From the NCBI RefSeq assembly GCF_007830295.1, contig NZ_VLKC01000002.1:468940-532939 (forward strand): a DNA stretch of 64,000 nucleotides. The letters run 5' to 3'. The notes under the pieces were generated by a model that did no database searches, was not told the DNA's origin, and was given only the letters and a program-made list of their open reading frames with translations. This document shows, in pieces, positions 12,137-24,322 of the stretch. The first letter of the stretch is position 1. Every line of letters begins with the position of its first letter. The position numbers were made by a program, and so were the translations under genes. The stretch comes from Sporomusa sp. KB1 (GTDB lineage: Bacteria > Bacillota > Negativicutes > Sporomusales > Sporomusaceae).

Positions 12137-13156
12137 TTACTTAGGTTCCAGTTGAGCAAGTCTTTGTTCAAGTTTGCGGATTTTTTTGACTAGTTCCGGC
12201 AGGTGACCGATGGCGGCTTCGGAACGCAGCCATTCCTGGTGTGGGCGGGCAGGAAAGCCGGCACAGAAGGAATTGGCTGGAATATCATTTATTGGTGCGG
12301 TACGGGCGGCAAATACACAGTTGTCGCCAATGGTTATATGCCCGTTGCAGCCTGATTGTCCGGCAAAGGTAACGTTATTGCCGATTTTGGTGCTGCCGGC
12401 AATGCCTGTCAGGGCCACAAAGAAGCAATTTTCACCAGTTACTACATTGTGAGCCAAATGTACCAGGTTATCAATTTTGGTACCTTTACCAACAATGGTA
12501 CTGCCGGTTGTGGCTCTGTCCAAACAAGAATTGGCACCAATTTCAACATCATCTTCAATGATAACATTTCCTACTTGAGGTACTTTTTGGTGGCGGCCAC
12601 CGACGGTGACAAAACCAAAGCCATCGCTGCCGATGACAGCACCGTTTTGAACAATAACCCGGTTACCGATGTGACAGGTTTCACGTACGGTGACATTGGA
12701 ATAAATGATTGTATCATCACCCACAGTCACATCCCTGCCAATATAAGTATTGGAGTAAATAATGGTATTATTGCCGATTTGAACATTATCTTCAATGACG
12801 GTATGGGCCATAATGGCCACCGCTGTTCCCAGTTTTACATTCGTCCCAAGGATAGCGGTCGGATGGATACCAACAGGTATCGCCGGTTTAGGAGTAAGCA
12901 AAGCGAGTAATGTGGTAAAGGCCATCCGGGGGTTAGTTACCCGGATAGCCGGCTTGGGAAAGTCTCCCATTGTATCAGGAATGATTACCGCTGCGGCAGC
13001 GCATTGAGCGGCTTTGTCAATATGAGGAGGTACAGCAAAGGTAATGTCACCAGGGCCGGCATCCTCAATGTTTGTTATACCGGTAACCTCCCTATCAGCG
13101 TCACCAATGACTGTTCCGTTAACCAATGCGGCAATCTCAGCTAATGTTTTTTTCAC
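12137..13156 (-). CDS. lpxD: UDP-3-O-(3-hydroxyacyl)glucosamine N-acyltransferase
   Basis: 339-residue LpxD: N-terminal uridine-binding domain (about 1-95), left-handed beta-helix of hexapeptide repeats (about 98-300) and C-terminal helix. Catalytic H236 lies in HLAHNV. The enzyme adds the second hydroxyacyl chain after LpxC. The start is GTG 13156, 7 bp after GGAGG; an upstream ATG at 13195 has no ribosome site and would overlap ompH. It keeps the bamA-skp-lpxD order known from proteobacteria, but is separated here from fabZ-lpxA by four genes. Confidence 0.95.
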   Translation of the reverse strand: MKKTLAEIAALVNGTVIGDADREVTGITNIEDAGPGDITFAVPPHIDKAAQCAAAAVIIPDTMGDFPKPAIRVTNPRMAFTTLLALLTPKPAIPVGIHPTAILGTNVKLGTAVAIMAHTVIEDNVQIGNNTIIYSNTYIGRDVTVGDDTIIYSNVTVRETCHIGNRVIVQNGAVIGSDGFGFVTVGGRHQKVPQVGNVIIEDDVEIGANSCLDRATTGSTIVGKGTKIDNLVHLAHNVVTGENCFFVALTGIAGSTKIGNNVTFAGQSGCNGHITIGDNCVFAARTAPINDIPANSFCAGFPARPHQEWLRSEAAIGHLPELVKKIRKLEQRLAQLEPK

Positions 13157-13169
13157 TGGACGCCTCCAT

Positions 13170-13592
13170 TTATTGCATTTTCTGAATAACGGCATCAGTT
13201 ATATCTGTACCGCCTGTGGCTATACTGTTTTTATAAAGTACAACGCCCATCTTTTTCTCTTGGCTTACTTGCTCAATGGCCTGTTTAATATTGGTGTCAA
13301 TCTGGGTTTCCAACTCTTGTTTGGTCTTTAGAAATTCACCATAGGCAGCTTCCTGGCGTTTTTGAAATTCTTCTGCACTGATACTGGCTTTGTCTTTTTC
13401 CAGTTGGTCACTCAATTCTTTGCCTTTAACATTAAGCTGGTCTTGAAACTGCTTAATTTTTGGGCTGTCAGACATAACTTTGTTTACATCAAGAACACCA
13501 ATGGCCGCCTGACCGCTATTACAGCCTGCAAGTGCCAAACCGGCAACAAAAACGAGTACTAACACCAGGACAATTCTAATTTGTCTATTCAT
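13170..13592 (-). CDS. OmpH/Skp-like periplasmic chaperone, predicted lipoprotein
   Basis: 140 residues. The N-terminus has a hydrophobic segment ending in the lipobox LAGC (C near residue 24), so it should be lipid-anchored, unlike soluble proteobacterial Skp. The mature part begins IGVLDVNKVM, a typical OmpH opening, followed by a charged coiled-coil (about 50-105) and a closing GGTDITDAVI segment shared with the two upstream paralogues. Skp-type proteins hold unfolded outer-membrane proteins for BamA. AGGAGG precedes ATG 13592; lpxD starts 13 bp downstream. Confidence 0.85.
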   Translation of the reverse strand: MNRQIRIVLVLVLVFVAGLALAGCNSGQAAIGVLDVNKVMSDSPKIKQFQDQLNVKGKELSDQLEKDKASISAEEFQKRQEAAYGEFLKTKQELETQIDTNIKQAIEQVSQEKKMGVVLYKNSIATGGTDITDAVIQKMQ

Positions 13593-13646
13593 GATAAACT
13601 CCTCCTTTGGAACCATCATCACTTAATTATAGTATATGCACGCAAA

Positions 13647-14603
13647 TTATTTCTTAAACGCGGCAATCACCGCGTTAGTAATATCAACAGCCGTACTATT
13701 GACTTGATATCCTGTCAATACAGTGTCCAGGCGACGTTCAATTGCCACTTTGGCCGTTTTATCACGGATATCATTTAAAATAGTTTCTTCAAGCACATTG
13801 ATTTCCTGTTGTTTCATGCCCAGTTGCTGCTCTAACTGCTTATTAGCTGCCGCTCCATCCGGGGGGGTAATTGCCTGGGCTATCGGGGCAGATATATTGG
13901 CAGTTTGAGCCAGTGTTTTGGCATTGAGCTCCGCATTTACTTGTTGGGCATAGGCAGCAAGTTCCTTCTCAATAGCAGCTTTTTCAGGAGCTAGCAAAGC
14001 ATCTAAGCTTTGGCCCAACTCTTTTTCTTTGGCGGCCAGTTTATTGGCTTGCTCTGCTTTCAATTCATCCAGGATCTTGCTTTCTTCAGCCGTTTGTTTT
14101 TCATCTAGCCGGACAGTTTGTAATTTTAGCTGTTGATTAAAAATCTGTGGCCGATATTCCTTATCCAGTTCTTGGGCATAGGCCTTAAGCTCAACCGCTA
14201 GTTCACCATGGACTTTATCAGCTTTTTTGACAAGCTTAGCCTGCAATTCTTGTTGTTTTGCTGCCATTTTGACATTAAATTCCTGTGCAGCTGCGGTTTG
14301 GAGTCCGTCAGCCACACTGCCTTGCAGATCCATGACTGGTGCTTCTGTGGCATTACGCGCTTGATTAACTTGCCCGCTTAGTTGTTGGCGAAGGGTGGCT
14401 GCCTGTTGCTTGAGTTTTTGCCACTCCTGATATTTAGGATGAGCATTTATGGCCTTATCCATGTCAATTACGCCAACTTGCGGTACTTCGGGGGGCTTGG
14501 TTTCAGGTGTCGCCGAACGGGAACAACCTGCAAAAAGAACAGTACTAAGGATCAGGATTACCAGAAACCGTATTGGTGTTGTTTGCTTTTTAGTTGTAAA
14601 CAC
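13647..14603 (-). CDS. long OmpH/Skp-like protein, predicted lipoprotein
   Basis: 318 residues, about twice a normal OmpH. Lipobox FAGC follows the signal segment; the mature protein starts VGVIDMDKAI and ends VDITNAVI, both conserved in its two neighbours, with a much extended Lys/Glu/Ala/Gln coiled coil in between. It is probably a longer-armed chaperone or an OmpH whose coil has grown by duplication. The start is GTG 14603 after GAGGGTGAT; the open frame continues to 14672 without a ribosome site. Middle of three tandem ompH-like genes. Confidence 0.8.
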   Translation of the reverse strand: MFTTKKQTTPIRFLVILILSTVLFAGCSRSATPETKPPEVPQVGVIDMDKAINAHPKYQEWQKLKQQAATLRQQLSGQVNQARNATEAPVMDLQGSVADGLQTAAAQEFNVKMAAKQQELQAKLVKKADKVHGELAVELKAYAQELDKEYRPQIFNQQLKLQTVRLDEKQTAEESKILDELKAEQANKLAAKEKELGQSLDALLAPEKAAIEKELAAYAQQVNAELNAKTLAQTANISAPIAQAITPPDGAAANKQLEQQLGMKQQEINVLEETILNDIRDKTAKVAIERRLDTVLTGYQVNSTAVDITNAVIAAFKK

Positions 14604-14713
14604 CAAATCACCCTCTCTAGTGTTAAGGTTCAGGATTACAGGCTTGTTTATGGTAAGGCTAAAGCCGAGCACAGACTAAACCGGCTCGGCTCAATTTATA
14701 CCGGAACCTTATA

Positions 14714-15184
14714 TTATTTACCGGTAATTTTTTTGCTAACATCCTCTGTCAGATCCTGGGCACCATAAACTACGTTGCCGACATCAAACACGACAGCGAT
14801 TCCTTTGGCATCAGCTACTGCTTTGATGGCCGCATCTACTTTGTCCTGAATTGGTGCAAATAACTCTTGCCGTTTCAATTCAAGGCGTTGCATAGTTTGA
14901 TTGTAGTATTCTTGTTTTTCTTTGTCTGCCATATTAGCAGACTTGGTTTCAAAGTCGGTTTTAGCCTGCTCTACTTCGGTTTTCATGGTTTCTTCTGCTT
15001 TAGCCAGATCAGGATGCTGTTGCAGCAGTAATGACCTGTTTACTTTGCCGATATTAGATGCAGTACCGGCACTAGCCGCATGGCCTGTACCAGCTTGAGA
15101 AAGCGCCAAACCAAAGACCCCCAGCAAGAATACTGCAGCTATAGTAACAGCAACAATTTTAGCATTTTTTTTGTTTTTAAACAT
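14714..15184 (-). CDS. OmpH/Skp-like periplasmic chaperone
   Basis: 156 residues with a cleavable signal or anchor (about residues 9-37, no lipobox Cys), then IGKVNRSLLLQQHP, a coiled coil with KQEYYNQTMQRLELKRQELF and a closing VVFDVGNVVYGAQDLTEDV. Length and arrangement fit OmpH/Skp. First of three paralogues in transcription order after the outer-membrane protein gene. Its mature N-terminus is less canonical than those of its neighbours, so exact client or role may differ. Confidence 0.8.
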   Translation of the reverse strand: MFKNKKNAKIVAVTIAAVFLLGVFGLALSQAGTGHAASAGTASNIGKVNRSLLLQQHPDLAKAEETMKTEVEQAKTDFETKSANMADKEKQEYYNQTMQRLELKRQELFAPIQDKVDAAIKAVADAKGIAVVFDVGNVVYGAQDLTEDVSKKITGK

Positions 15185-15268: not shown

Positions 15269-16567
15269 CTACAAATTGGCGATCAGTCTAAGCCAGTTTT
15301 CCTTTTCAGTAATAACATATTCGGCACTTAGAAACTCATGCAGCTTATATCTGACCCCAAATTCGTAGTAATCAGCTTTGGGCGTGTCTTCCAGCCGAAT
15401 CATCCAGTTGGGGCCAAGGTTGTGATTAAGCCATAGGATACTATCATGTTCTGAGATATTGTACCTTAGACCGGCTAGCGTATTTTCTGTAAATTTATGG
15501 CCCCAACCTGGTTCAAACTCCCACTCCATGCTATCAGGGGCAAATTTAATTTCCATAAAAGCCTCATCCCGCTTGCCGGTAAATTTACCAAAATGAAGTT
15601 TCGCCATCGTATTATCTTTCTCTCGCCCCATATCCAAACTGCCTTCGAGAATTACCCGGTATTTGGTAGTTTCGGCCTGAAGTGTTATTGCAGTATCAAC
15701 GCCGGGATTTATAGCAGGAGTTAATAGCAAGCCATACTTTTTAACTACGGGATGCTTAGCCGCCGTTTTTTGTATCTCAGTAGTAAAATACTCTTTATGC
15801 CGCTCCACAAAAGCTACCGGCAAACCACGCAGCATGTCCGCCGCTTTGCGGACAGGGGGCCTGGCCTCAGCCAGCAAGATATTGGGAATGGTACTTGAGC
15901 GCAGGGAAAGTTCAACATTATTAATTGTTGGTCCTGTGGGAATTAGCGAAAGTTTGATACTCGTATGCTGCCCGGCAGTAATCTCAAGATTACTGCGAAA
16001 TTCCGGCAGTTCGGTTGCCAACAATTCGCGGATAACCGTCTTGGATATTCCGCCTGCCCATTCTACTGAGTCTACAGGCAGACCAATCAAAACATCGGCA
16101 GCTTGATCTTCTATCTTACCCATGTCGTTTTTGATTACTGTCATTACCTCAGGTGAGAGACCACCGATGTCAATTTCAAGAGAAATGTCGCGCACGACAT
16201 CACCCCAGGGTCTTACTGTCACTAAAATATTGGTGCTGGTACCTGGAGTTAATTTAACTTGCTCGACTGTATAACCAACGAGTACTCTGTTGAATATATC
16301 CCTGACAAGATCTTCATAGTTGGCTTGATTTGTCTCTACATCAATAAGGGTTCGCCCAACAAGAATCTGTTCTCCTACTGTCATAATACTTGCGGTCATT
16401 CGCTTGGCAATTCTGGCAGGAGGCGGCTCAGCAGCCGCAACAGTTACCACGATTTTATCCACTGTCTCAGTTGCAGCTAAGCCGGTTCCCGGCCAAAGGC
16501 TCAGCAAGGTAATAAAGCTGAGAACTAGGAGTATCTGGCGTGGACATTTTCTGCTAATAACTCGCAC
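15269..16567 (-). CDS. predicted outer-membrane/periplasmic protein between bamA and ompH, unknown family
   Basis: About 430 residues. A signal peptide (SRKCPRQILLVLSF... to GLAA) is followed by an alpha/beta periplasmic region with repeated POTRA-like VxLxPGxS strands, then an antiparallel-strand-rich C-terminal third ending LRLIANL, suggesting a small barrel. I cannot name the family. The start is uncertain: GGGAGG is followed by GTG 16567 inside the ribosome site or by an in-frame ATT at 16558 with good spacing and directly before the signal peptide; the ATG at 16618 would force translation through a 13-bp hairpin. Confidence 0.65.
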   Translation of the reverse strand: MRVISRKCPRQILLVLSFITLLSLWPGTGLAATETVDKIVVTVAAAEPPPARIAKRMTASIMTVGEQILVGRTLIDVETNQANYEDLVRDIFNRVLVGYTVEQVKLTPGTSTNILVTVRPWGDVVRDISLEIDIGGLSPEVMTVIKNDMGKIEDQAADVLIGLPVDSVEWAGGISKTVIRELLATELPEFRSNLEITAGQHTSIKLSLIPTGPTINNVELSLRSSTIPNILLAEARPPVRKAADMLRGLPVAFVERHKEYFTTEIQKTAAKHPVVKKYGLLLTPAINPGVDTAITLQAETTKYRVILEGSLDMGREKDNTMAKLHFGKFTGKRDEAFMEIKFAPDSMEWEFEPGWGHKFTENTLAGLRYNISEHDSILWLNHNLGPNWMIRLEDTPKADYYEFGVRYKLHEFLSAEYVITEKENWLRLIANL

Positions 16568-16580
16568 CTCCCTCTTAGTA

Positions 16581-16609
16581 AATGAGTCAGGCCAGCGGCC
16601 TGACTCATT
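16581..16609. other. perfect hairpin between bamA and the next gene
   Basis: 13-bp perfect stem (AATGAGTCAGGCC) with a 3-nt loop, 12 bp after the bamA stop and just before the downstream ribosome site. No T-tract follows, so it looks like an mRNA-stability or attenuation hairpin that lowers downstream expression relative to bamA rather than a full terminator. Confidence 0.7.
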
Positions 16610-16621
16610 AGCTAACATGTT

Positions 16622-18358
16622 TTAGAACTGACCACCAAAACTGAAGTGAGTACGTCCACCCTCATCGCCTTTAGCAAAGTCGATACGAACCGGCCCAATT
16701 GGCGTTGTCATGCGGATACCAACACCAACGCTGCTTTTTAGGTCATCAAGTTTGTAACCGCCACCAGTCCAGGCATTACCAATATCAGTAAATACTACAC
16801 CCTGAATTTTGCTAATAACCGGGAAGCGATATTCGACAGAACCGGCAAGCATCTTGTTGCCTTTGTATTGTTCATCCTCATAGCCACGGAGTGTATCGGC
16901 GCCGCCGACTTCAAACCGGTTTGCATCCGAAATATTACCGTCAGCATAACCGGCCGTGAGACGGGTAGCGATTACGTGGTTAGGCCCGACTTTGAAATAT
17001 TTACGTCCTTCAAGAGTATATTTGTTGAAATTAAAGTCGCCGCCCAAACCGGCAAATTCGGCTGACAGGGAGTACCGTGCTCCCTCAGACGGAGCAAAAA
17101 CGTTATCCCGCGAGTCAAACACTCGCATTAACGTAACGCTGCGGGTCAGGCCATAGTTATCTTTAAGATATTGGTTATGCTCCGCAGTCCCGTCTAAATA
17201 GTTTATAGGTCCACTTTCATATTCTTCATAGGTGTCTTTACGGTTTTTAAAGGTGATATAATTTTGAATATACTCACCTGACGGACGGCCCAGGGTAATG
17301 TCAAAACCTCGACGGTTTTTGTCATAGGTTGTCTTCTCAGTATCAGTACCGTCATAGTAATCCGTATACTCATTGGTCAAGTCGTATACGCTGAAACTCA
17401 GCGAGGTTTGTTTGCTGTCAAGCCAGGGGCGGGTAAAGCTAACTTCATAGTTTTTGTCGCTGGCACCGCCAAACTCCCAGTGAAATTTGACTTTGTCGCC
17501 ACTGCCCCTGAAGTTGTTGTCACCTACTTCAATAATACCAATCATACCATCAGATTTGCTGTAACCGCCGCCGATGGAAAAGGTACCTGTTTTCTGCTCA
17601 ACGACTCCTGCCTCAAGCACAACAGCATTCGGCTCTTTACCAGGATTAAGTTTCATGTTAACATCTTCAAAATAACCAAGGTTGTACACTTTTTGCATGC
17701 TGCGTTTGGCATCCTTTACATTGAAAGGTTCGCCTGGCTTGACTTTCATTTCACGGGTGATAACATTGGTTTTGGTTTTATCATTACCTTTAACAACAAC
17801 ACCTTCCAACACACCCTCACTAATGGTCAGTGTCAGTACACCAGCCGGGCTCATAGCCACATCAGTTACCTTTGCCAGAATATAACCCTGGTCATGGTAG
17901 TACTGTTCGATAGCCCGAACATTGGTGTTTAGGGTTCTGGTGTTCAAAATACTATCTTTGCTGGTAGTCACTAATTCTTTAATTTTGTCTACAGATACTT
18001 TGGTATTGCCTTTAACAACAATGTCGGCTAACTTTGGGTTTTCCATAACGGTATATACCACGTTGATGCCTTCAGGCACTTCATTGAAGTTGGCTACAAC
18101 ATCAAAAAAGTAGCCTAAATCGTAGATAGCCTGCATGTCCTGTTTAACTTTCTCGGCGGTTAAGGTATCCCCAGGCTGGATTTTTACCACACCCCTAACA
18201 GTGCTTTCGGCAACTTTATCAGTGCCGGTAACTGTTATGGAGGTAGCCGTTTTGCCTTCAATATTTGCTGCTGCATAAGCAGGCAGAACTAACGATGCGG
18301 TCATGCTTAAAACAAGCGCAGCAATAACAAAAATTCTGCAGCGTAGAACGTTCTTCAT
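16622..18358 (-). CDS. bamA: outer-membrane protein assembly factor BamA, three-POTRA form
   Basis: 578 residues. Signal peptide to about 30 (PAYAA), three POTRA domains (about 36-112, 113-188, 189-263) and a 16-strand Omp85 barrel (about 264-578). The conserved barrel loop motif appears as LRGYEDEQ, and the protein ends in Phe (FGGQF), the usual barrel signal. Proteobacterial BamA has five POTRAs, so this shorter form implies a simpler assembly machine; no bamB-E genes are seen nearby. AAGGAGG precedes the ATG. It is followed by ompH-like genes and lpxD, as in proteobacteria. Confidence 0.95.
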   Translation of the reverse strand: MKNVLRCRIFVIAALVLSMTASLVLPAYAAANIEGKTATSITVTGTDKVAESTVRGVVKIQPGDTLTAEKVKQDMQAIYDLGYFFDVVANFNEVPEGINVVYTVMENPKLADIVVKGNTKVSVDKIKELVTTSKDSILNTRTLNTNVRAIEQYYHDQGYILAKVTDVAMSPAGVLTLTISEGVLEGVVVKGNDKTKTNVITREMKVKPGEPFNVKDAKRSMQKVYNLGYFEDVNMKLNPGKEPNAVVLEAGVVEQKTGTFSIGGGYSKSDGMIGIIEVGDNNFRGSGDKVKFHWEFGGASDKNYEVSFTRPWLDSKQTSLSFSVYDLTNEYTDYYDGTDTEKTTYDKNRRGFDITLGRPSGEYIQNYITFKNRKDTYEEYESGPINYLDGTAEHNQYLKDNYGLTRSVTLMRVFDSRDNVFAPSEGARYSLSAEFAGLGGDFNFNKYTLEGRKYFKVGPNHVIATRLTAGYADGNISDANRFEVGGADTLRGYEDEQYKGNKMLAGSVEYRFPVISKIQGVVFTDIGNAWTGGGYKLDDLKSSVGVGIRMTTPIGPVRIDFAKGDEGGRTHFSFGGQF

Positions 18359-18380
18359 CTATTACCTCCTTATTTATTTG

Positions 18381-18947
18381 TTATTGACCTCGCAACGATT
18401 GTCCAGCTGTGCGGATTAGCTTGTTAATCTCATCCGTTGTCAGGGGAACTTCTTTGCTTTGGTCGGCATTAGAAGCGGATTTTTTTGGTTCTGATGGTTC
18501 CGAACCTTCATAAGCAGACTGTACAGTCTGCTTATGAGTTGCAGGCTGAACAGCTGCAACTGTTGTAGCTGCTGGCAGTGAGACAGACATTGCAGCCGGC
18601 GGAGCCTGGATGGAGTTTATTTCCACCGCCGGAACCAACTGTTGAGTCTCAGCTATTGGCTGTACTTCCTGTTGCTGGCGCCCTCCCCACCAATAACTGA
18701 CGCCTACTCCGCCAACAGCTACCACCACAGCCAACCCCAAAGCCAGACTATGCCGCAGCACCGGATATTTGTACCGCCACTGCTGGGAACGGTTAACTTC
18801 CCTGGCATGGGTGAGTTCAGCCTGAGCTAAAAACAAGTTAAGCTCGCCGCGAATGTCTTTGTCTTTGTCAAAAGCCTGTTCAGCCTCTGAAAGCCATTGC
18901 TGTGCTGAGTTTAGATGCCTGTTAACATTTTGTTTACAATCCGCCAC
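18381..18947 (-). CDS. single-pass membrane protein of unknown function between sigma factor and bamA
   Basis: 188 residues, GTG start after GGGGTGG. A helical, charged N-terminal segment (about 1-60, cytoplasmic by charge rules) containing AEQAFDKDKDIRGELNLFLAQAE is followed by one TM helix (about 69-89) and an Ala/Pro/Val-rich extracytoplasmic tail ending in a short helix. I do not recognise the family. Its size, topology and position after a sigma factor gene are those of many membrane regulators, but there is no zinc or anti-sigma motif that I can see. It lies 22 bp before bamA, so it is probably co-transcribed. Confidence 0.6.
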   Translation of the reverse strand: MADCKQNVNRHLNSAQQWLSEAEQAFDKDKDIRGELNLFLAQAELTHAREVNRSQQWRYKYPVLRHSLALGLAVVVAVGGVGVSYWWGGRQQQEVQPIAETQQLVPAVEINSIQAPPAAMSVSLPAATTVAAVQPATHKQTVQSAYEGSEPSEPKKSASNADQSKEVPLTTDEINKLIRTAGQSLRGQ

Positions 18948-19337
18948 ATTCACCACCCCTATTATAAACACTATTTATACTCCTGTGAAGAGGCCAGATT
19001 CTGGTCATTAGTAAACAGCCAAAAACGGATAAATGTCTAAATTAGCTTGTTGATAGTCGGTATTTCGAGTAGTTTCGACGTATTTGCTGAGTTTTTTGAG
19101 ATTGTCGTTTTCTTTTCCCCCGGCGTGTTTGATAAAACACGTTACCTTACTTTCCGGAAACTGGCGAGAAATGTCAGCTGCGAGGCGCACCGGAGAAACG
19201 TGCAGCGCCGCGTACAAGGCGTACGCAAACAAGCGTTTCGAGGAGCAACACCGTCGCCTACGAAAATACTTTACGGCAGTTTGTGGCAGTAGTCTTGTTA
19301 TAACAGCCCGTGCAGATGGGCGTTTATCGCCAGTTTC
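18948..19337 (-). other. 390-bp gap with structured, repeat-like sequence
   Basis: No convincing gene. The right two thirds are richer in G and C than neighbours and hold hairpins (CGTGTTT/AAACACG at about 19122-19140; GCGTAC/GTACGC near 19205-19225). A TTG-initiated open frame at 19008-19232 (74 codons) and its in-frame extension upstream have odd composition (runs of Arg, Cys, Ser), no ribosome site and look like sequence of a dispersed repeat inserted between the sigma gene and the membrane protein gene. Confidence 0.45.
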
Positions 19338-19976
19338 CTACCAGTTGCCCATTAGCTTGGACAACATCCCTCGCAAGCGCCTAATTCCTTGTTTTTGCAG
19401 ACGATAGATATGTGATAGGCTTACCTCCATTGTAGCCGCTAACTCTTTGGGCTGACAGTCATCAAGAAACACGCCCTGTAAGACCTGCTGCTCTTTGGCT
19501 GGCAGACGATCCATGGCCGTTTTGAGTTGCTCGACAAGGTAGTTCTGCTCTACTTGTGCAGCTACCTCAGCCTGAGCATCAACTAACAAGTCAGCAATTG
19601 TTGTCTGGCTAACCCCCTCGGTTAGCGGGCTATCGATATGCAACAAGCTGCCGTCTTCACATTTCAGGTGATTAATAATCCGGCCCTTGATGCGATGCAC
19701 AGCAAACAGGCTAAAAGCGACCCCCCTGGTATGGTCATATTTTTCAACAGCTTCAATGAGTCCTACTGTCCCTTCCTGAATACTATCCAGCATCGCCGGT
19801 TCAGGCAGACGCCAGCGCATGGCTGTTTTAAAAACCAGGGGCTGATAGCATTCGATAAGGCGGCGGCGACTTTCCAGGCTGCCGTCCACCTTATAGCTCT
19901 GCCACAAGCTCTGTTCTTCTTCCGGCAGCAAGGTTTGAATATTTTTCAGTTCTGCCAAATACTGACTGAGAATCAT
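19338..19976 (-). CDS. sigma-70 family RNA polymerase sigma factor in the outer-membrane cluster
   Basis: 212 residues. Region 2 covers about 40-106 with the core-binding QEGTVGLIEAVEKYD and a -10-recognition stretch ending IKGRIINHLK; region 4 covers about 155-204 with RLPAKEQQVL and the helix-turn-helix ELAATMEVSLSHIYRLQ. Region 1.1 is absent and the middle is short, as in alternative group 3 factors. ATG 19976 follows AAAGGGTGG, 14 bp after the tamB stop. Target promoters are unknown; the place between tamB and bamA suggests envelope control, an inference only. Confidence 0.85.
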   Translation of the reverse strand: MILSQYLAELKNIQTLLPEEEQSLWQSYKVDGSLESRRRLIECYQPLVFKTAMRWRLPEPAMLDSIQEGTVGLIEAVEKYDHTRGVAFSLFAVHRIKGRIINHLKCEDGSLLHIDSPLTEGVSQTTIADLLVDAQAEVAAQVEQNYLVEQLKTAMDRLPAKEQQVLQGVFLDDCQPKELAATMEVSLSHIYRLQKQGIRRLRGMLSKLMGNW

Positions 19977-19990
19977 GGTATCCACCCTTT

Positions 19991-22900
19991 TTAGAAATTA
20001 GCTCTTGTCTCAATTATGAATAGCCCATTATTCGTTCCCCCAAAGGTTCCTCCGACGGAAAAACGCTTGTTCAAGTCATAACGCAGACTTACACTATTTT
20101 TTTTCTGATCAAGATCCATGGTATAACTTAGTAGTAGCTTATCTGTTAGATACTTGCCTATTTCCAGGTTGTATCCCTGGAAACTGCTATCGTTATTATC
20201 TTGACTGTCCCGAGTGCTATAGGTATCAAATACTGAAGATTTTGCCAGACGAAACTCATCAACCCCCAAAGCATTTTGCATGGAATTCTCTATCTCGGCA
20301 ATAAAACGCATCTGCAAGCCAGCATTTAGCAGGCTGACTAACTGATCATGGCCTAACACACTATCATGTCTGGCCTGACTATTCGATTTAGAAAAATCGC
20401 CGCCGCTGAGCGTCAATATTGACATAATTTCCTGCTGGCTCATATCCGGGTCAGAGGTTAAGGTAAGGTCCATCGCCGTAGCAGGGCCATTGATCACCAG
20501 ATCGATACGTGTTCGTTGCAGTTTGGCGTTAGCCTTTAACTTAATTATCGGTATAATCGAATTGTATTGGGTAAATTCGGCACTGCCACTTTCAATGTTA
20601 AAACGGTTTGTCAGGTATTTTACCGTACCGCGCCTTGCTTCTATGCGGCCAGCGGCTCGCGGCTTTTGTAATGTACCGGAAAACTTCACTTTACCCGCGG
20701 CCCGGAAATCATAGAGATAGGGATTATACATCCGGACTTTATCGCCAATGACTAGCTCGACATCCAGCCCGGTATCCCAATCAAGCTCACCGCCTTCAGG
20801 CACCGCCGGTATATTAACGGTGGCATCTTCAATGGTCAGTTTCCCTGATAGTTGCGGTTTTCCTTTTTCACTAGTTAATGATACCACACCATCTAGCGGT
20901 CCGGCAAAGTATTTGTGTTTAATTCCCAAATGATCCAATCGCAGCATGAGGTTGTAATTATCAAGCGCTAAGCCATTTAGACGGGCAGAACCGTTTAAGG
21001 CATAGGAACCGCCCCCCATTTGTCCATCAAAGTCATTTATAGTAATTGTATCATCTTGAAACTGAATATCAACCCCTACATTTTGGATGGGTTCATTAAG
21101 GTCGGCCAATTTAATAGTGCCCTTAACTACTGTTAGCTTACCATTCAAAGTAGGCTGAGCCAATGTGCCGCCAACACTGATTTCACCGGTAGTTGGACCA
21201 GTAGCCCAGGCCACTTCTTTGGTCAGCATCGGCAGTATCCTTAGATCCGCGTTATCAAGGCGCAGCTTCAGATCCATTCTATCGGTTATATCAGCTTTGC
21301 TGCGGCCTTGGCTATTGAGGGCTTTTAACGGTATTACGCCATAGGCGCTTGCTTTATAAGGTCCGCGCGCCAAAAACAGCTGATTAACATGAATGCTGCC
21401 TTGCTTATAGATGAACAACCCGTAAAGATTATCAAATTCAGCGTTAGCAACACTCCCGTCTTTGATCTCTAACGATACGGCTACATTGGGATCGGCTGTT
21501 AGGCCGGTAGCCTGGGCATTAAAGCTAAATTTCCCTTTGGTCTCAACAGTTGTATCAAACAAGGCCGGTAAAATTCCGGTCTCAATATCGCGACCACCAA
21601 ATTCCATATCAATAGCCCCGTTCAGATCGGCCTGCCCTCTGGCAACCAGTATCCCATCAGCCCCTTGTTTACCCATAAATTTATTGATAGTAATAATCTG
21701 GTTGGTAAGCTCAGCATCAATGTCAATACTGTCAAGTGAATAGTTTTTGATCTGGCCGCTGGAGATGGCGCCGCGTAATAGCACGTCGGGATTGGTTATG
21801 CTGCCATTTAAGGCGATTTCCCCGTTAAGCCGGCCGCGAATACCTCGCTCCGGTATATTGGCTATCGCCAAAATACCGGCCAATTCACCATTTTCCACCT
21901 TGAGCAAGCCGTCAATTTCTTTTGTATTTAGATCAGCAGCCCCCGCAAAAACATAGTTGCCAGTACCTTGAGCAAAATGAAGTTCCTGGATAGTAGCGTG
22001 TCCGTCTTGATACGTTAAGCGCGAAAAAATGTTCTTAACCTCCTGGCCGTTCAGCAGGACTAGCGGCGCTTCCAGTTGTCCTTCCAGTTTGGGGCTAGCC
22101 ATAGTACCTGTTACTTGACCACTAATATTCACCTTGCCTAAAACTGGGTAAGGGTAATTTACCCGCAGTCTGCCAAGTTTTACATCTTGGGCGTTTACGG
22201 CAAAGTTTAAACTATTATCAGCTGCCACCGTACCTGATAGTTTTATGCTGGTACCCAGTGATACTATATCCAGATTATTGACAATAATAGCGCCATCTCT
22301 GCGTTCATAAGATCCCTCGGCTTTGGCAATAAGCTGACCGTACAGACTGCCTTGCGTCAATATAATTTTCCCTTGAAAGTTTGGATTGCTCAGCGGCCCT
22401 GTCAGGCTTAGCTCATGGTCCACATTGCCTGTTAATTTAAGTTCAGGCATAATCATTCTGGCAAATGTCTCAGCCCGGGCGGCGTGAGATATCACCCTCA
22501 GATTAAGCTCCGGCTCGAAGCCTGTCAACAAGATTTTGCCAGTAACTTCATGTCTGGCGGTGCCGTCGGTAAGGAGCACCTGATGCAAAGCTACCTGTTG
22601 GCAATCGGCTGTAAGCTTACCTGTAGCTGTTCCCAATAATTGTTCATTGGCCTTTAGGTTAGCAATATCGAAAGTAAGGGCGATGACTGGGGCAGCTGTT
22701 GTACCGGTAATTTCACCGTCAAATGCCGCTATTCCGGCAAAATTACTATTTTTCACAATAGCATCGTCAATATCCTGTAATGCTATCCCCTGGCCGCTGA
22801 CCTTCATTGTCAGCTGTTCTCCCTGCAGCATGCCATTGGCGGCAACATAGCCTGTTGGCAGCGCTGCATTAAAGTATTCTACTGTTGTCTTATTGCCACT

Positions 22901-24322
22901 GCGTTCTATGAGAGTTGACATCGTATTGTACGGTATCCCATTGATGTTCCCTGCTGCCAGGGTCACAGCAGCCATACCGGCCATTGATTGCCAGTCATTG
23001 CCTTGCCCGCTGACAGAAAGATGGACTTTTCCCCGCCCACTTAGTTCCAGCGGCAGCTCTTGAACAGCAGCTGCATCCAAATTTTCACCAGCAAGCTGCA
23101 ATTGATAGCGGCTGCTGACAACATCGAATTCTCCCTGCCCCTGTACCTGCCCCCCCAGCATACTAGCAGAAAAATTATCAATAGTAAGGATATTGCCGGC
23201 AAATCTGAGGTTTGCCTTGGCTGCTTGCAAGGAATAGTTGGCAACTGTCCCCTGGGCTGCGGTAACTTTAGCAGCCACAACCGGATCGCGCAGTGTCCCT
23301 GCAACCGTAGCGTCAAACTTAACAATCCCGGTAACTGGCAAATTTCCGTTAATGGCCCCTGGATCAAAACCGGGAGATCCTACCCTTAAATCGAACACCG
23401 GCTGATCACCAGCTATGCCGATTTTTCCAAACATAGTCACTGGCTGACTGGCAACAAGCGCATGACTGCCCAGTATGTAAACACTTTCATTAGAAAACAT
23501 AACATCACCCTGCGCCTGCTCAACAGGTATACCTGCCACCTGGGCTGCAAGGTTATCCAGGCCGAATTTCCCTGCATAACGCAAGCCTGCAGGACTGTTG
23601 GTAACTGTAACCTCTACCTGTTTGAGCAAACCGGCGGTGAATTTGAGTTCTGTACCGGCAGGCACCAATGCCTGATAATTGGCTGGATTCAGCTGTTCTG
23701 CTTTGACTGTCAGCCATAGGCTGTTTTTGGTATTGTTAAGCGAGCCTTGTATTTTCAGTGGCGAGGCGTTATGACTGGCGGTCAAAATTGCATCAACGGT
23801 TTGACTCCCGTCGATAGTAAACTGACCATCAATCTTATCAAAATCCCATTGGCCTTTACGTGAATGGACTTGAATACTTGCCTGCTCTAAGACTACATTA
23901 CCACTAAATTCCGGGCTGCCAGGCTTAGCGTCCTGCTTTAAACACGCCGCATTCCAGGTACCATCAGCTTCTTCTACCAATACAATTGTCGCTTGCGTAA
24001 GTGTGATTTTTTTGAGAGCATCTATGGCCGTCTGACCACGCAGCAAAGCAAGCAGGCTATAGGAAACAGTGACCTGCTTAATAGCCGCCATTTCCCGGCC
24101 TTGCTTATCAAATATCGTTACATCATCTACGGTAGCTGAAGTTAGTCCTGCCGTATGCAGTTGGCCGATTGTTACCTTGGTTCCCAACGAATCGGTCAAT
24201 TGGGCAGCTAAGGTTCCTTCCAGTTCGGCAAAAACAGTCTGACTGTGGGTTGACCACCAGCCAAAAACAGCCAGCCCAACCATAAGTACTATTATAAATA
24301 AAGCAATTGCTTTGATTCGCAT
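19991..24322 (-). CDS. tamB: translocation and assembly module TamB / AsmA-like lipid-bridge protein
   Basis: 1443 residues: N-terminal TM helix (about 6-24) and a very long run of beta-strands with repeating L-x-G-x-V patterns, the lipid-groove fold of the TamB/VPS13-like bridge proteins, ending in the DUF490 domain (last about 350 residues) and a C-terminal Phe (TRANF). TamB spans the periplasm and carries phospholipid to the outer membrane. No tamA is seen, so BamA encoded downstream may be its outer-membrane contact. GAGGAGG precedes the ATG; a terminator separates it from tolC. Confidence 0.93.
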   Translation of the reverse strand: MRIKAIALFIIVLMVGLAVFGWWSTHSQTVFAELEGTLAAQLTDSLGTKVTIGQLHTAGLTSATVDDVTIFDKQGREMAAIKQVTVSYSLLALLRGQTAIDALKKITLTQATIVLVEEADGTWNAACLKQDAKPGSPEFSGNVVLEQASIQVHSRKGQWDFDKIDGQFTIDGSQTVDAILTASHNASPLKIQGSLNNTKNSLWLTVKAEQLNPANYQALVPAGTELKFTAGLLKQVEVTVTNSPAGLRYAGKFGLDNLAAQVAGIPVEQAQGDVMFSNESVYILGSHALVASQPVTMFGKIGIAGDQPVFDLRVGSPGFDPGAINGNLPVTGIVKFDATVAGTLRDPVVAAKVTAAQGTVANYSLQAAKANLRFAGNILTIDNFSASMLGGQVQGQGEFDVVSSRYQLQLAGENLDAAAVQELPLELSGRGKVHLSVSGQGNDWQSMAGMAAVTLAAGNINGIPYNTMSTLIERSGNKTTVEYFNAALPTGYVAANGMLQGEQLTMKVSGQGIALQDIDDAIVKNSNFAGIAAFDGEITGTTAAPVIALTFDIANLKANEQLLGTATGKLTADCQQVALHQVLLTDGTARHEVTGKILLTGFEPELNLRVISHAARAETFARMIMPELKLTGNVDHELSLTGPLSNPNFQGKIILTQGSLYGQLIAKAEGSYERRDGAIIVNNLDIVSLGTSIKLSGTVAADNSLNFAVNAQDVKLGRLRVNYPYPVLGKVNISGQVTGTMASPKLEGQLEAPLVLLNGQEVKNIFSRLTYQDGHATIQELHFAQGTGNYVFAGAADLNTKEIDGLLKVENGELAGILAIANIPERGIRGRLNGEIALNGSITNPDVLLRGAISSGQIKNYSLDSIDIDAELTNQIITINKFMGKQGADGILVARGQADLNGAIDMEFGGRDIETGILPALFDTTVETKGKFSFNAQATGLTADPNVAVSLEIKDGSVANAEFDNLYGLFIYKQGSIHVNQLFLARGPYKASAYGVIPLKALNSQGRSKADITDRMDLKLRLDNADLRILPMLTKEVAWATGPTTGEISVGGTLAQPTLNGKLTVVKGTIKLADLNEPIQNVGVDIQFQDDTITINDFDGQMGGGSYALNGSARLNGLALDNYNLMLRLDHLGIKHKYFAGPLDGVVSLTSEKGKPQLSGKLTIEDATVNIPAVPEGGELDWDTGLDVELVIGDKVRMYNPYLYDFRAAGKVKFSGTLQKPRAAGRIEARRGTVKYLTNRFNIESGSAEFTQYNSIIPIIKLKANAKLQRTRIDLVINGPATAMDLTLTSDPDMSQQEIMSILTLSGGDFSKSNSQARHDSVLGHDQLVSLLNAGLQMRFIAEIENSMQNALGVDEFRLAKSSVFDTYSTRDSQDNNDSSFQGYNLEIGKYLTDKLLLSYTMDLDQKKNSVSLRYDLNKRFSVGGTFGGTNNGLFIIETRANF

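Follow-up and report, generated by a model that had tools for sequence, protein, structure and literature searches.

In Escherichia coli, bamA and skp are among the targets of sigma-E. Transmembrane anti-sigma factors usually have one transmembrane (TM) helix and a conserved periplasmic end, and zinc-binding anti-sigma (ZAS) factors have a conserved H-x3-C-x2-C signature. In SigI/RsgI systems, the gene after the sigma factor gene encodes a regulator that crosses the membrane once and varies in its extracytoplasmic part, FlgM and RsiG are helical, soluble anti-sigma factors, and two-part sigma factors exist, such as SigO/RsoA of Bacillus subtilis. The sigma-E factor of E. coli is held by the single-pass protein RseA and freed by unfolded outer-membrane proteins, and lpxD is one of its targets, as described in PMC2215328. 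For diderm Firmicutes, PMC5007114 describes a conserved LPS–outer-membrane locus with tamB, bamA, skp, and lpx genes; the word "sigma" is absent from its main text. A literature search found nothing on the gene pair described here, nor any paper on how diderm Firmicutes respond to outer-membrane stress.

The window, the whole 64,000-nucleotide stretch of Sporomusa sp. KB1 that we analyzed (genome size of 6.06 Mb), carries the same LPS–outer-membrane locus, as far as the description in PMC5007114 goes. Between its tamB and bamA genes lie a sigma factor gene and a gene for a single-pass membrane protein, here called mem. As in sigma-E/RseA, a sigma factor is combined with a single-pass inner-membrane protein, and outer-membrane assembly and LPS genes are the proposed targets. 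Unlike sigma-E, the KB1 sigma factor does not look like a plain ECF sigma factor (the best NCBIfam model is TIGR02937, followed by SigF, WhiG, and FliA models below their cut-offs); unlike RseA, mem has a different periplasmic part, and RseA_N neither matches the window protein nor is listed for any of 51 mem family members; and unlike either, the KB1 genes sit inside their proposed target cluster. The pair is sigma-E/RseA-like in layout but is not a member of that system, because the family-defining domains tested are missing. The SigI/RsgI systems of Bacillota share the gene order and a single-pass regulator whose extracytoplasmic part varies. However, RsgI_N is likewise without a match in window mem and among the families listed for the 51 members, no SigI model is among the 25 NCBIfam families listed for the sigma factor, and the KB1 pair has an outer-membrane gene context. 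The pair also resembles FliA/FlgM and WhiG/RsiG in that the sigma factor is nearest to WhiG-type and FliA proteins by profile and its partner is helical, but mem is membrane-bound, has no sequence match to the soluble FlgM and RsiG, and, unlike FliA/FlgM, pairs of the KB1 type occur in genomes without flagellin (38 of 121).

Gene order and predicted proteins

Along the minus strand, the genes are tamB, sigma, mem, bamA, a gene for a 449-aa protein, three OmpH/Skp-like genes, lpxD, a YjbH-like gene, and a lipid A acyltransferase gene. The sigma gene (19338–19976, minus strand; 212 aa; Pfam regions 2 and 4) has tamB as its upstream neighbor (19991–24322, minus strand; PF04357, E = 6e-47) and is followed by mem (18381–18947, minus strand; 188 aa, GTG start), which encodes a candidate transmembrane anti-sigma factor or sensor. 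After 22 bp comes bamA (16622–18358, minus strand; Omp85, E = 1.5e-46), the first outer-membrane gene behind a promoter-like element described below. Gene coordinates and Pfam matches thus confirm the arrangement given in the first-pass annotation, with a 212-aa sigma factor and a 188-aa single-pass protein between tamB and bamA. The three OmpH/Skp-like genes and lpxD (12137–15184, minus strand; Pfam OmpH, two above cut-off, and LpxD) are on the same strand and likely share the mem–bamA transcript. Within the OmpH/Skp-like trio (13170–15184, minus strand), the middle gene stands out by its length (316 aa or more), and its OmpH match is weak (E = 5.9e-4, under the cut-off). The 449-aa protein encoded between bamA and the Skp-like genes (15269–16618, minus strand) has no convincing family (best Pfam E = 0.11) and is likely an envelope protein.

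The sigma factor belongs to the sigma-70 family, with matches to Sigma70_r2 (E = 1.6e-14) and Sigma70_r4 (E = 1.1e-9) that both exceed Pfam cut-offs. Regions 2 and 4 are set apart by about 46 residues, region 3 is not clear, and residues 1–35 resemble region 1.2 by eye; PF00140 was matched in the orthologue at locus L344 (E = 1.5e-5). Among NCBIfam models, the sigma70-ECF superfamily model TIGR02937 scores 92.2 against a cut-off of 42.9, and those of group 3 (FliA/WhiG/SigF) fall short of theirs (SigF-like 88.2 of 261; FliA 82.5 of 201). The AF2 model has a pLDDT of 85, and the PDB matches listed for it are sigma factors or sigma-bearing complexes; among solved chains, the profile is closest to WhiG-type sigma factors and FliA. 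The closest proteins among the best 80 of 292 matches are from Sporomusa silvacetica (98% identity) and S. ovata (96%).

The mem protein is predicted to have one TM helix, and its AF2 model (mean pLDDT 69.8, pTM 0.25) has helices at residues 2–28, 30–93, and 171–185, arranged as a helical hairpin running into the TM helix, a disordered arm, and a C-terminal helix. The predicted cytoplasmic N-domain (residues 1–57; 18777–18947, minus strand) comprises the hairpin and the motif ARxWLxxAExSFxxxxxIRGELxLxLAxAEL; conservation reaches at least 70% at 20 of its 57 residues (alignment A2). Because K and R are more common before than after the TM helix (residues about 67–93; 18669–18749, minus strand) in all 117 class mem proteins, the N-terminus is predicted to be inside. 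The predicted periplasmic helix at the C-terminus (residues 169–188; 18384–18443, minus strand) covers the AF2 helix at 171–185 and has the class consensus EMQKLxRxAGKSLRGQ, in which L185 is invariant and A181 and R186 are conserved at 92% and 94%, respectively (alignment A2). Mean majority identity across the 117 class proteins is 0.57 in the N-domain and 0.62 in the last 20 residues versus 0.25 in the linker. The linker varies in length from 47 to 120 residues; Ala, Pro, Val, Glu, Ser, and Gln are abundant in it, and Cys is almost absent. Given its length, the modeled arm could in principle cross the periplasm. A helical head, one TM helix, and an extracytoplasmic tail had been proposed from the translation, and the AF2 helices and the predicted N-in topology agree with that outline.

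For window mem, no Pfam or NCBIfam family scored above its cut-off, and across the 51-member mem family any match is weak and confined to a few proteins. A fold search returned no match among solved folds (best E = 3.8), and Cys is absent from the positions that are at least 70% conserved, which differs from the ZAS signature. The protein has the general layout of transmembrane anti-sigma factors, being encoded beside its sigma gene, with a conserved cytoplasmic domain and a predicted N-in single TM helix. With mem, a new family of proteins is defined that are likely transmembrane anti-sigma factors.

Joint inheritance and joint loss

Across 150 genomes of Negativicutes, matches to window sigma with E < 1e-43 were taken as orthologues; the next-best matches are other sigma factors at E of about 1e-15. 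A sigma orthologue is present in 121 genomes and mem is present in every one of them. The order tamB–sigma–mem–bamA is found in 118 of the 121, window included. Besides the window, 120 class loci were fetched and 117 keep this order on one strand, which excludes a chance arrangement. A tblastn search with window mem missed five of the 117, but an ORF with the mem motif is nevertheless present there. In three genomes, all of one genus, tamB–sigma and mem–bamA are at separate places, so sigma and mem stay together in a genome even when they are no longer neighbors. In a contig scan, the best 80 of 292 sigma matches were from Negativicutes or MAGs, and a stricter mem motif pattern finds mem in 61 of these 80 loci.

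Conversely, only one of the 29 sigma-less class genomes has mem (G026), and there it lies beside a sigma fragment cut by the contig end. In 22 of the 29, tamB is joined directly to bamA; six others were not judged at the junction, three with an unrecognized tamB (L192, L208, L215) and three with no usable bamA (G021, G126, G143). On a BamA tree from which three short rows were left out, the pair was lost jointly about eight times, seven of which are forced by well-supported branches. Veillonella is likely a lineage without the pair; its Vpar_0526 and Vpar_0527 are given as tamB and bamA, with consecutive locus numbers, in PMC5491611. Distances between sigma proteins and between mem N-domains are correlated after removal of the BamA component (0.41 vs. 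at most 0.36 in within-family permutations), a relation that is only suggestive.

Gene content of the sigma-bearing genomes bears on what the sigma factor may control. In addition to the 38 without flagellin, 67 of 121 lack Spo0A and 34 lack both, which rules out a regulon for motility or sporulation only, the outcome that would have spoken against an outer-membrane role.

The pair also occurs outside the class. Searching 299 genomes of the phylum with a mem profile yielded strong matches (E < 1e-9) in 11 genomes outside Negativicutes, all with the order tamB–sigma–mem–bamA, although in one locus 3.2 kb separates sigma and mem. All 11 proteins clearly show the N-domain motif, and a similar amphipathic C-terminal stretch can be seen by eye in nine. 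The two genes were predicted to be conserved together, and mem accompanies sigma in 121 of 121 class genomes and in 11 of 11 outside it. Of the 299 genomes, 61 have TamB, and 51 of these lie outside the class; we fetched 39 of the 40 such outside-class genomes without a strong mem match, leaving out G434, whose TamB is below the cut-off. In 38 of these 39 loci tamB and bamA are adjacent with neither sigma nor mem, and one locus runs off its contig. Diderm Bacillota outside the class therefore have the insertion in 11 of 49 judged loci and neither gene in 38, and none of the judged loci has sigma without mem or mem without sigma. Weaker mem matches in 11 outside-class genomes (E from 9e-6 to 8e-4) were dropped, as their coordinates correspond to the TM and linker part; two of these genomes were checked (L346, L347) and have no sigma, tamB, or bamA there.

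The promoter-like element before mem

Across the class, a GGATTATAT-type element lies in front of mem. In the window, the conserved promoter-like element (18973–19008, minus strand; 41.5 bits with the R1 model) contains ACCAGAATCTGGCCTCTTCACAGGAGTATA, and a proposed alternative -10 element, GGAGTATAA (18975–18983, minus strand), corresponds to a class-wide gGAtTATAT motif and is 36 nt before the start codon. It overlaps a sigma-A-type promoter, TTCACA-17-TATAAT (18961–18989, minus strand), which matches the consensus at 11 of 12 positions. The -10 of the latter is so near the start codon that the predicted transcript would be almost leaderless, with the Shine-Dalgarno sequence at or before its 5' end.

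The gGAtTATAT motif emerged from an unbiased search of regions cut at the mem start codon (five promoter regions under 60 nt left out). The 90 sites with scores of at least 6 come from 29 of 31 families, and their median distance to the start codon is 37 nt. Scores of at least 8 occur in 84 of 111 regions, with a model trained on those very regions and six of 117 (under 75 nt) left out, versus 1.4% of shuffles and none of 21 tamB–bamA spacers of pair-less genomes (21 of 22 scored; under 40 nt left out). When the motif model is trained on 13 core families, 37 of 66 regions from 18 other families score at least 7, compared to 3.65% of shuffles and none of 46 windows located farther upstream; all four f30 regions and five of six f10 regions in this out-of-family test have no good motif. 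In divergent families, the motif is preceded by an A-rich block at a distance of 14 to 19 nt, positions 21 and 22 are rich in G/T, and A/T-rich steps occur at 28–31 and 38–41, a pattern that would be expected of a promoter.

Core families share a conserved 30-nt block before mem. Its profile has one strong match per genome; in 25 of 31 genomes this match has E < 1e-4 and falls on the mem promoter. A search of the whole KB1 genome allowing up to three mismatches found no second copy of the element. Exact TATAAT is present in 39 of 45 core-family regions versus 2 of 67 divergent-family regions; GANT[AG]TA is present in 43 of the latter. Because TATAAT lies behind the element in core families, basal transcription of mem–bamA by sigma-A is likely there. 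Outside the class, 5 of 11 loci have a sigma–mem gap of 30 nt or less and hence no separate mem promoter.

These patterns fit the suggestion that the pair resides in its own target cluster, since a class-wide element precedes mem–bamA and vanishes with the pair. They do not extend to a promoter shared with tamB, tolC, mlaE, and lpxC, which the first-pass annotation had anticipated: the promoter model reaches 41.5 bits in front of mem, and no other site in the window exceeds 9.3 bits. The sigma factor could serve other promoters with a looser consensus, which here are inseparable from noise.

The sigma–mem gap of the window is 390 bp long and includes the promoter-like element and a ~215-bp insert (19060–19300). 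The insert is missing in close relatives, in which the gap is about 170 bp, and has four partial copies (80–92% identity) elsewhere in the KB1 genome; it is probably a small mobile or repeat element that left the mem promoter intact. An Rfam search of 18300–20100 gave no match at E up to 1.

A proposed membrane-tethered switch and competing explanations

We consider it fairly probable that sigma and mem form a dedicated membrane-tethered sigma/anti-sigma switch that drives mem, bamA, the skp-like genes, and lpxD. The sigma gene is carried behind tamB, so that the sigma factor would be made along with TamB and would be bound, inhibited, and tethered to the inner membrane by the cytoplasmic helical hairpin of mem. 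The flexible Pro/Ala-rich periplasmic arm would end in the conserved amphipathic helix, and this helix may touch a periplasmic or outer-membrane assembly component, for which BamA is the most economical candidate. An altered contact, or cutting of mem, would free the sigma factor to read the GGATTATAT-type promoter between the sigma and mem genes, with mem, bamA, the skp-like genes, and lpxD as output. Newly made mem would then shut the sigma factor off again as negative feedback. With such a circuit, the cell could probably adjust outer-membrane assembly to need. In core families mem–bamA may also be transcribed without the sigma factor, because a sigma-A-type promoter overlaps the element.

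Several observations weigh against the switch and in part favor other explanations. Window mem matches no solved fold and no known anti-sigma family above cut-off, and the missing family match would suit a positive partner or tether, that is, a co-activator or membrane localizer that together with the sigma factor makes up a two-part sigma. Joint presence and joint loss are equally expected of an obligate co-activator, and SigO/RsoA provides a precedent. Yet the sigma factor already has regions 2 and 4 and needs no second half, and the combination of one TM helix and a conserved periplasmic end is the usual layout of a transmembrane anti-sigma factor, making a co-activator unlikely in our judgment. 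That mem directly precedes bamA even in the three genomes from which sigma has moved away, and that its periplasmic end is conserved, would also be expected if mem served BamA or TamB as a structural partner in the inner membrane, with the sigma gene hitchhiking in the operon. We regard this as very unlikely: no examined genome keeps mem without sigma (in G026 the sigma fragment is at a contig end), the two genes vanish jointly about eight times while tamB and bamA stay, and conservation of the cytoplasmic domain is roughly on a par with that of the periplasmic end.

The occurrence of the full element once per genome implies either a sigma factor with one promoter, which would be unusual, or a real regulon whose consensus is looser than the one tested. 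It is also compatible with a regulated sigma-A promoter before mem–bamA, in which case the sigma factor would run other genes and its place at bamA would be incidental; the 11 of 12 consensus matches and the exact TATAAT of most core-family regions point the same way. This explanation appears improbable given that exact TATAAT is rare and GANT[AG]TA frequent in divergent families, that none of the 21 spacers of pair-less genomes reaches a motif score of 8, and that the position between tamB and bamA is also kept outside the class. Further points against the switch are the class regions with no good motif, the five outside-class loci with no separate mem promoter, and the several lineages that live without the pair.

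The idea of an outer-membrane switch of diderm Firmicutes can be retained in part: the pair is found beyond Negativicutes, but because it is absent from many diderms, it is not a universal switch of this group. Pair-bearing lineages are scattered on the phylum BamA tree (12 changes). On the sigma tree, the class forms one clade (96/97) and family f127 groups with f136, near the grouping on the BamA tree. The pair is probably older than Negativicutes. Spread by transfer, with gene replacement at the same tamB–bamA junction, would be an alternative; the constant insertion point is best explained by a shared diderm ancestor followed by repeated losses. Tentatively, and short of calling it probable, we suggest an ancestral switch for Firmicutes outer-membrane biogenesis that already occupied the tamB–bamA junction in the last diderm ancestor that Negativicutes share with several other lineages of diderm Bacillota, was inherited mostly vertically and repeatedly lost as a unit, and whose arm would read the state of BamA through the C-terminal helix. 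A regulator inside the outer-membrane cluster and older than the class would offer a handle on control of the second membrane and would also bear on what was lost en route to monoderms. The loci of the genus in which the order is split (L186–L188, L201, L203, L209) provide a natural test of the pair acting in trans.
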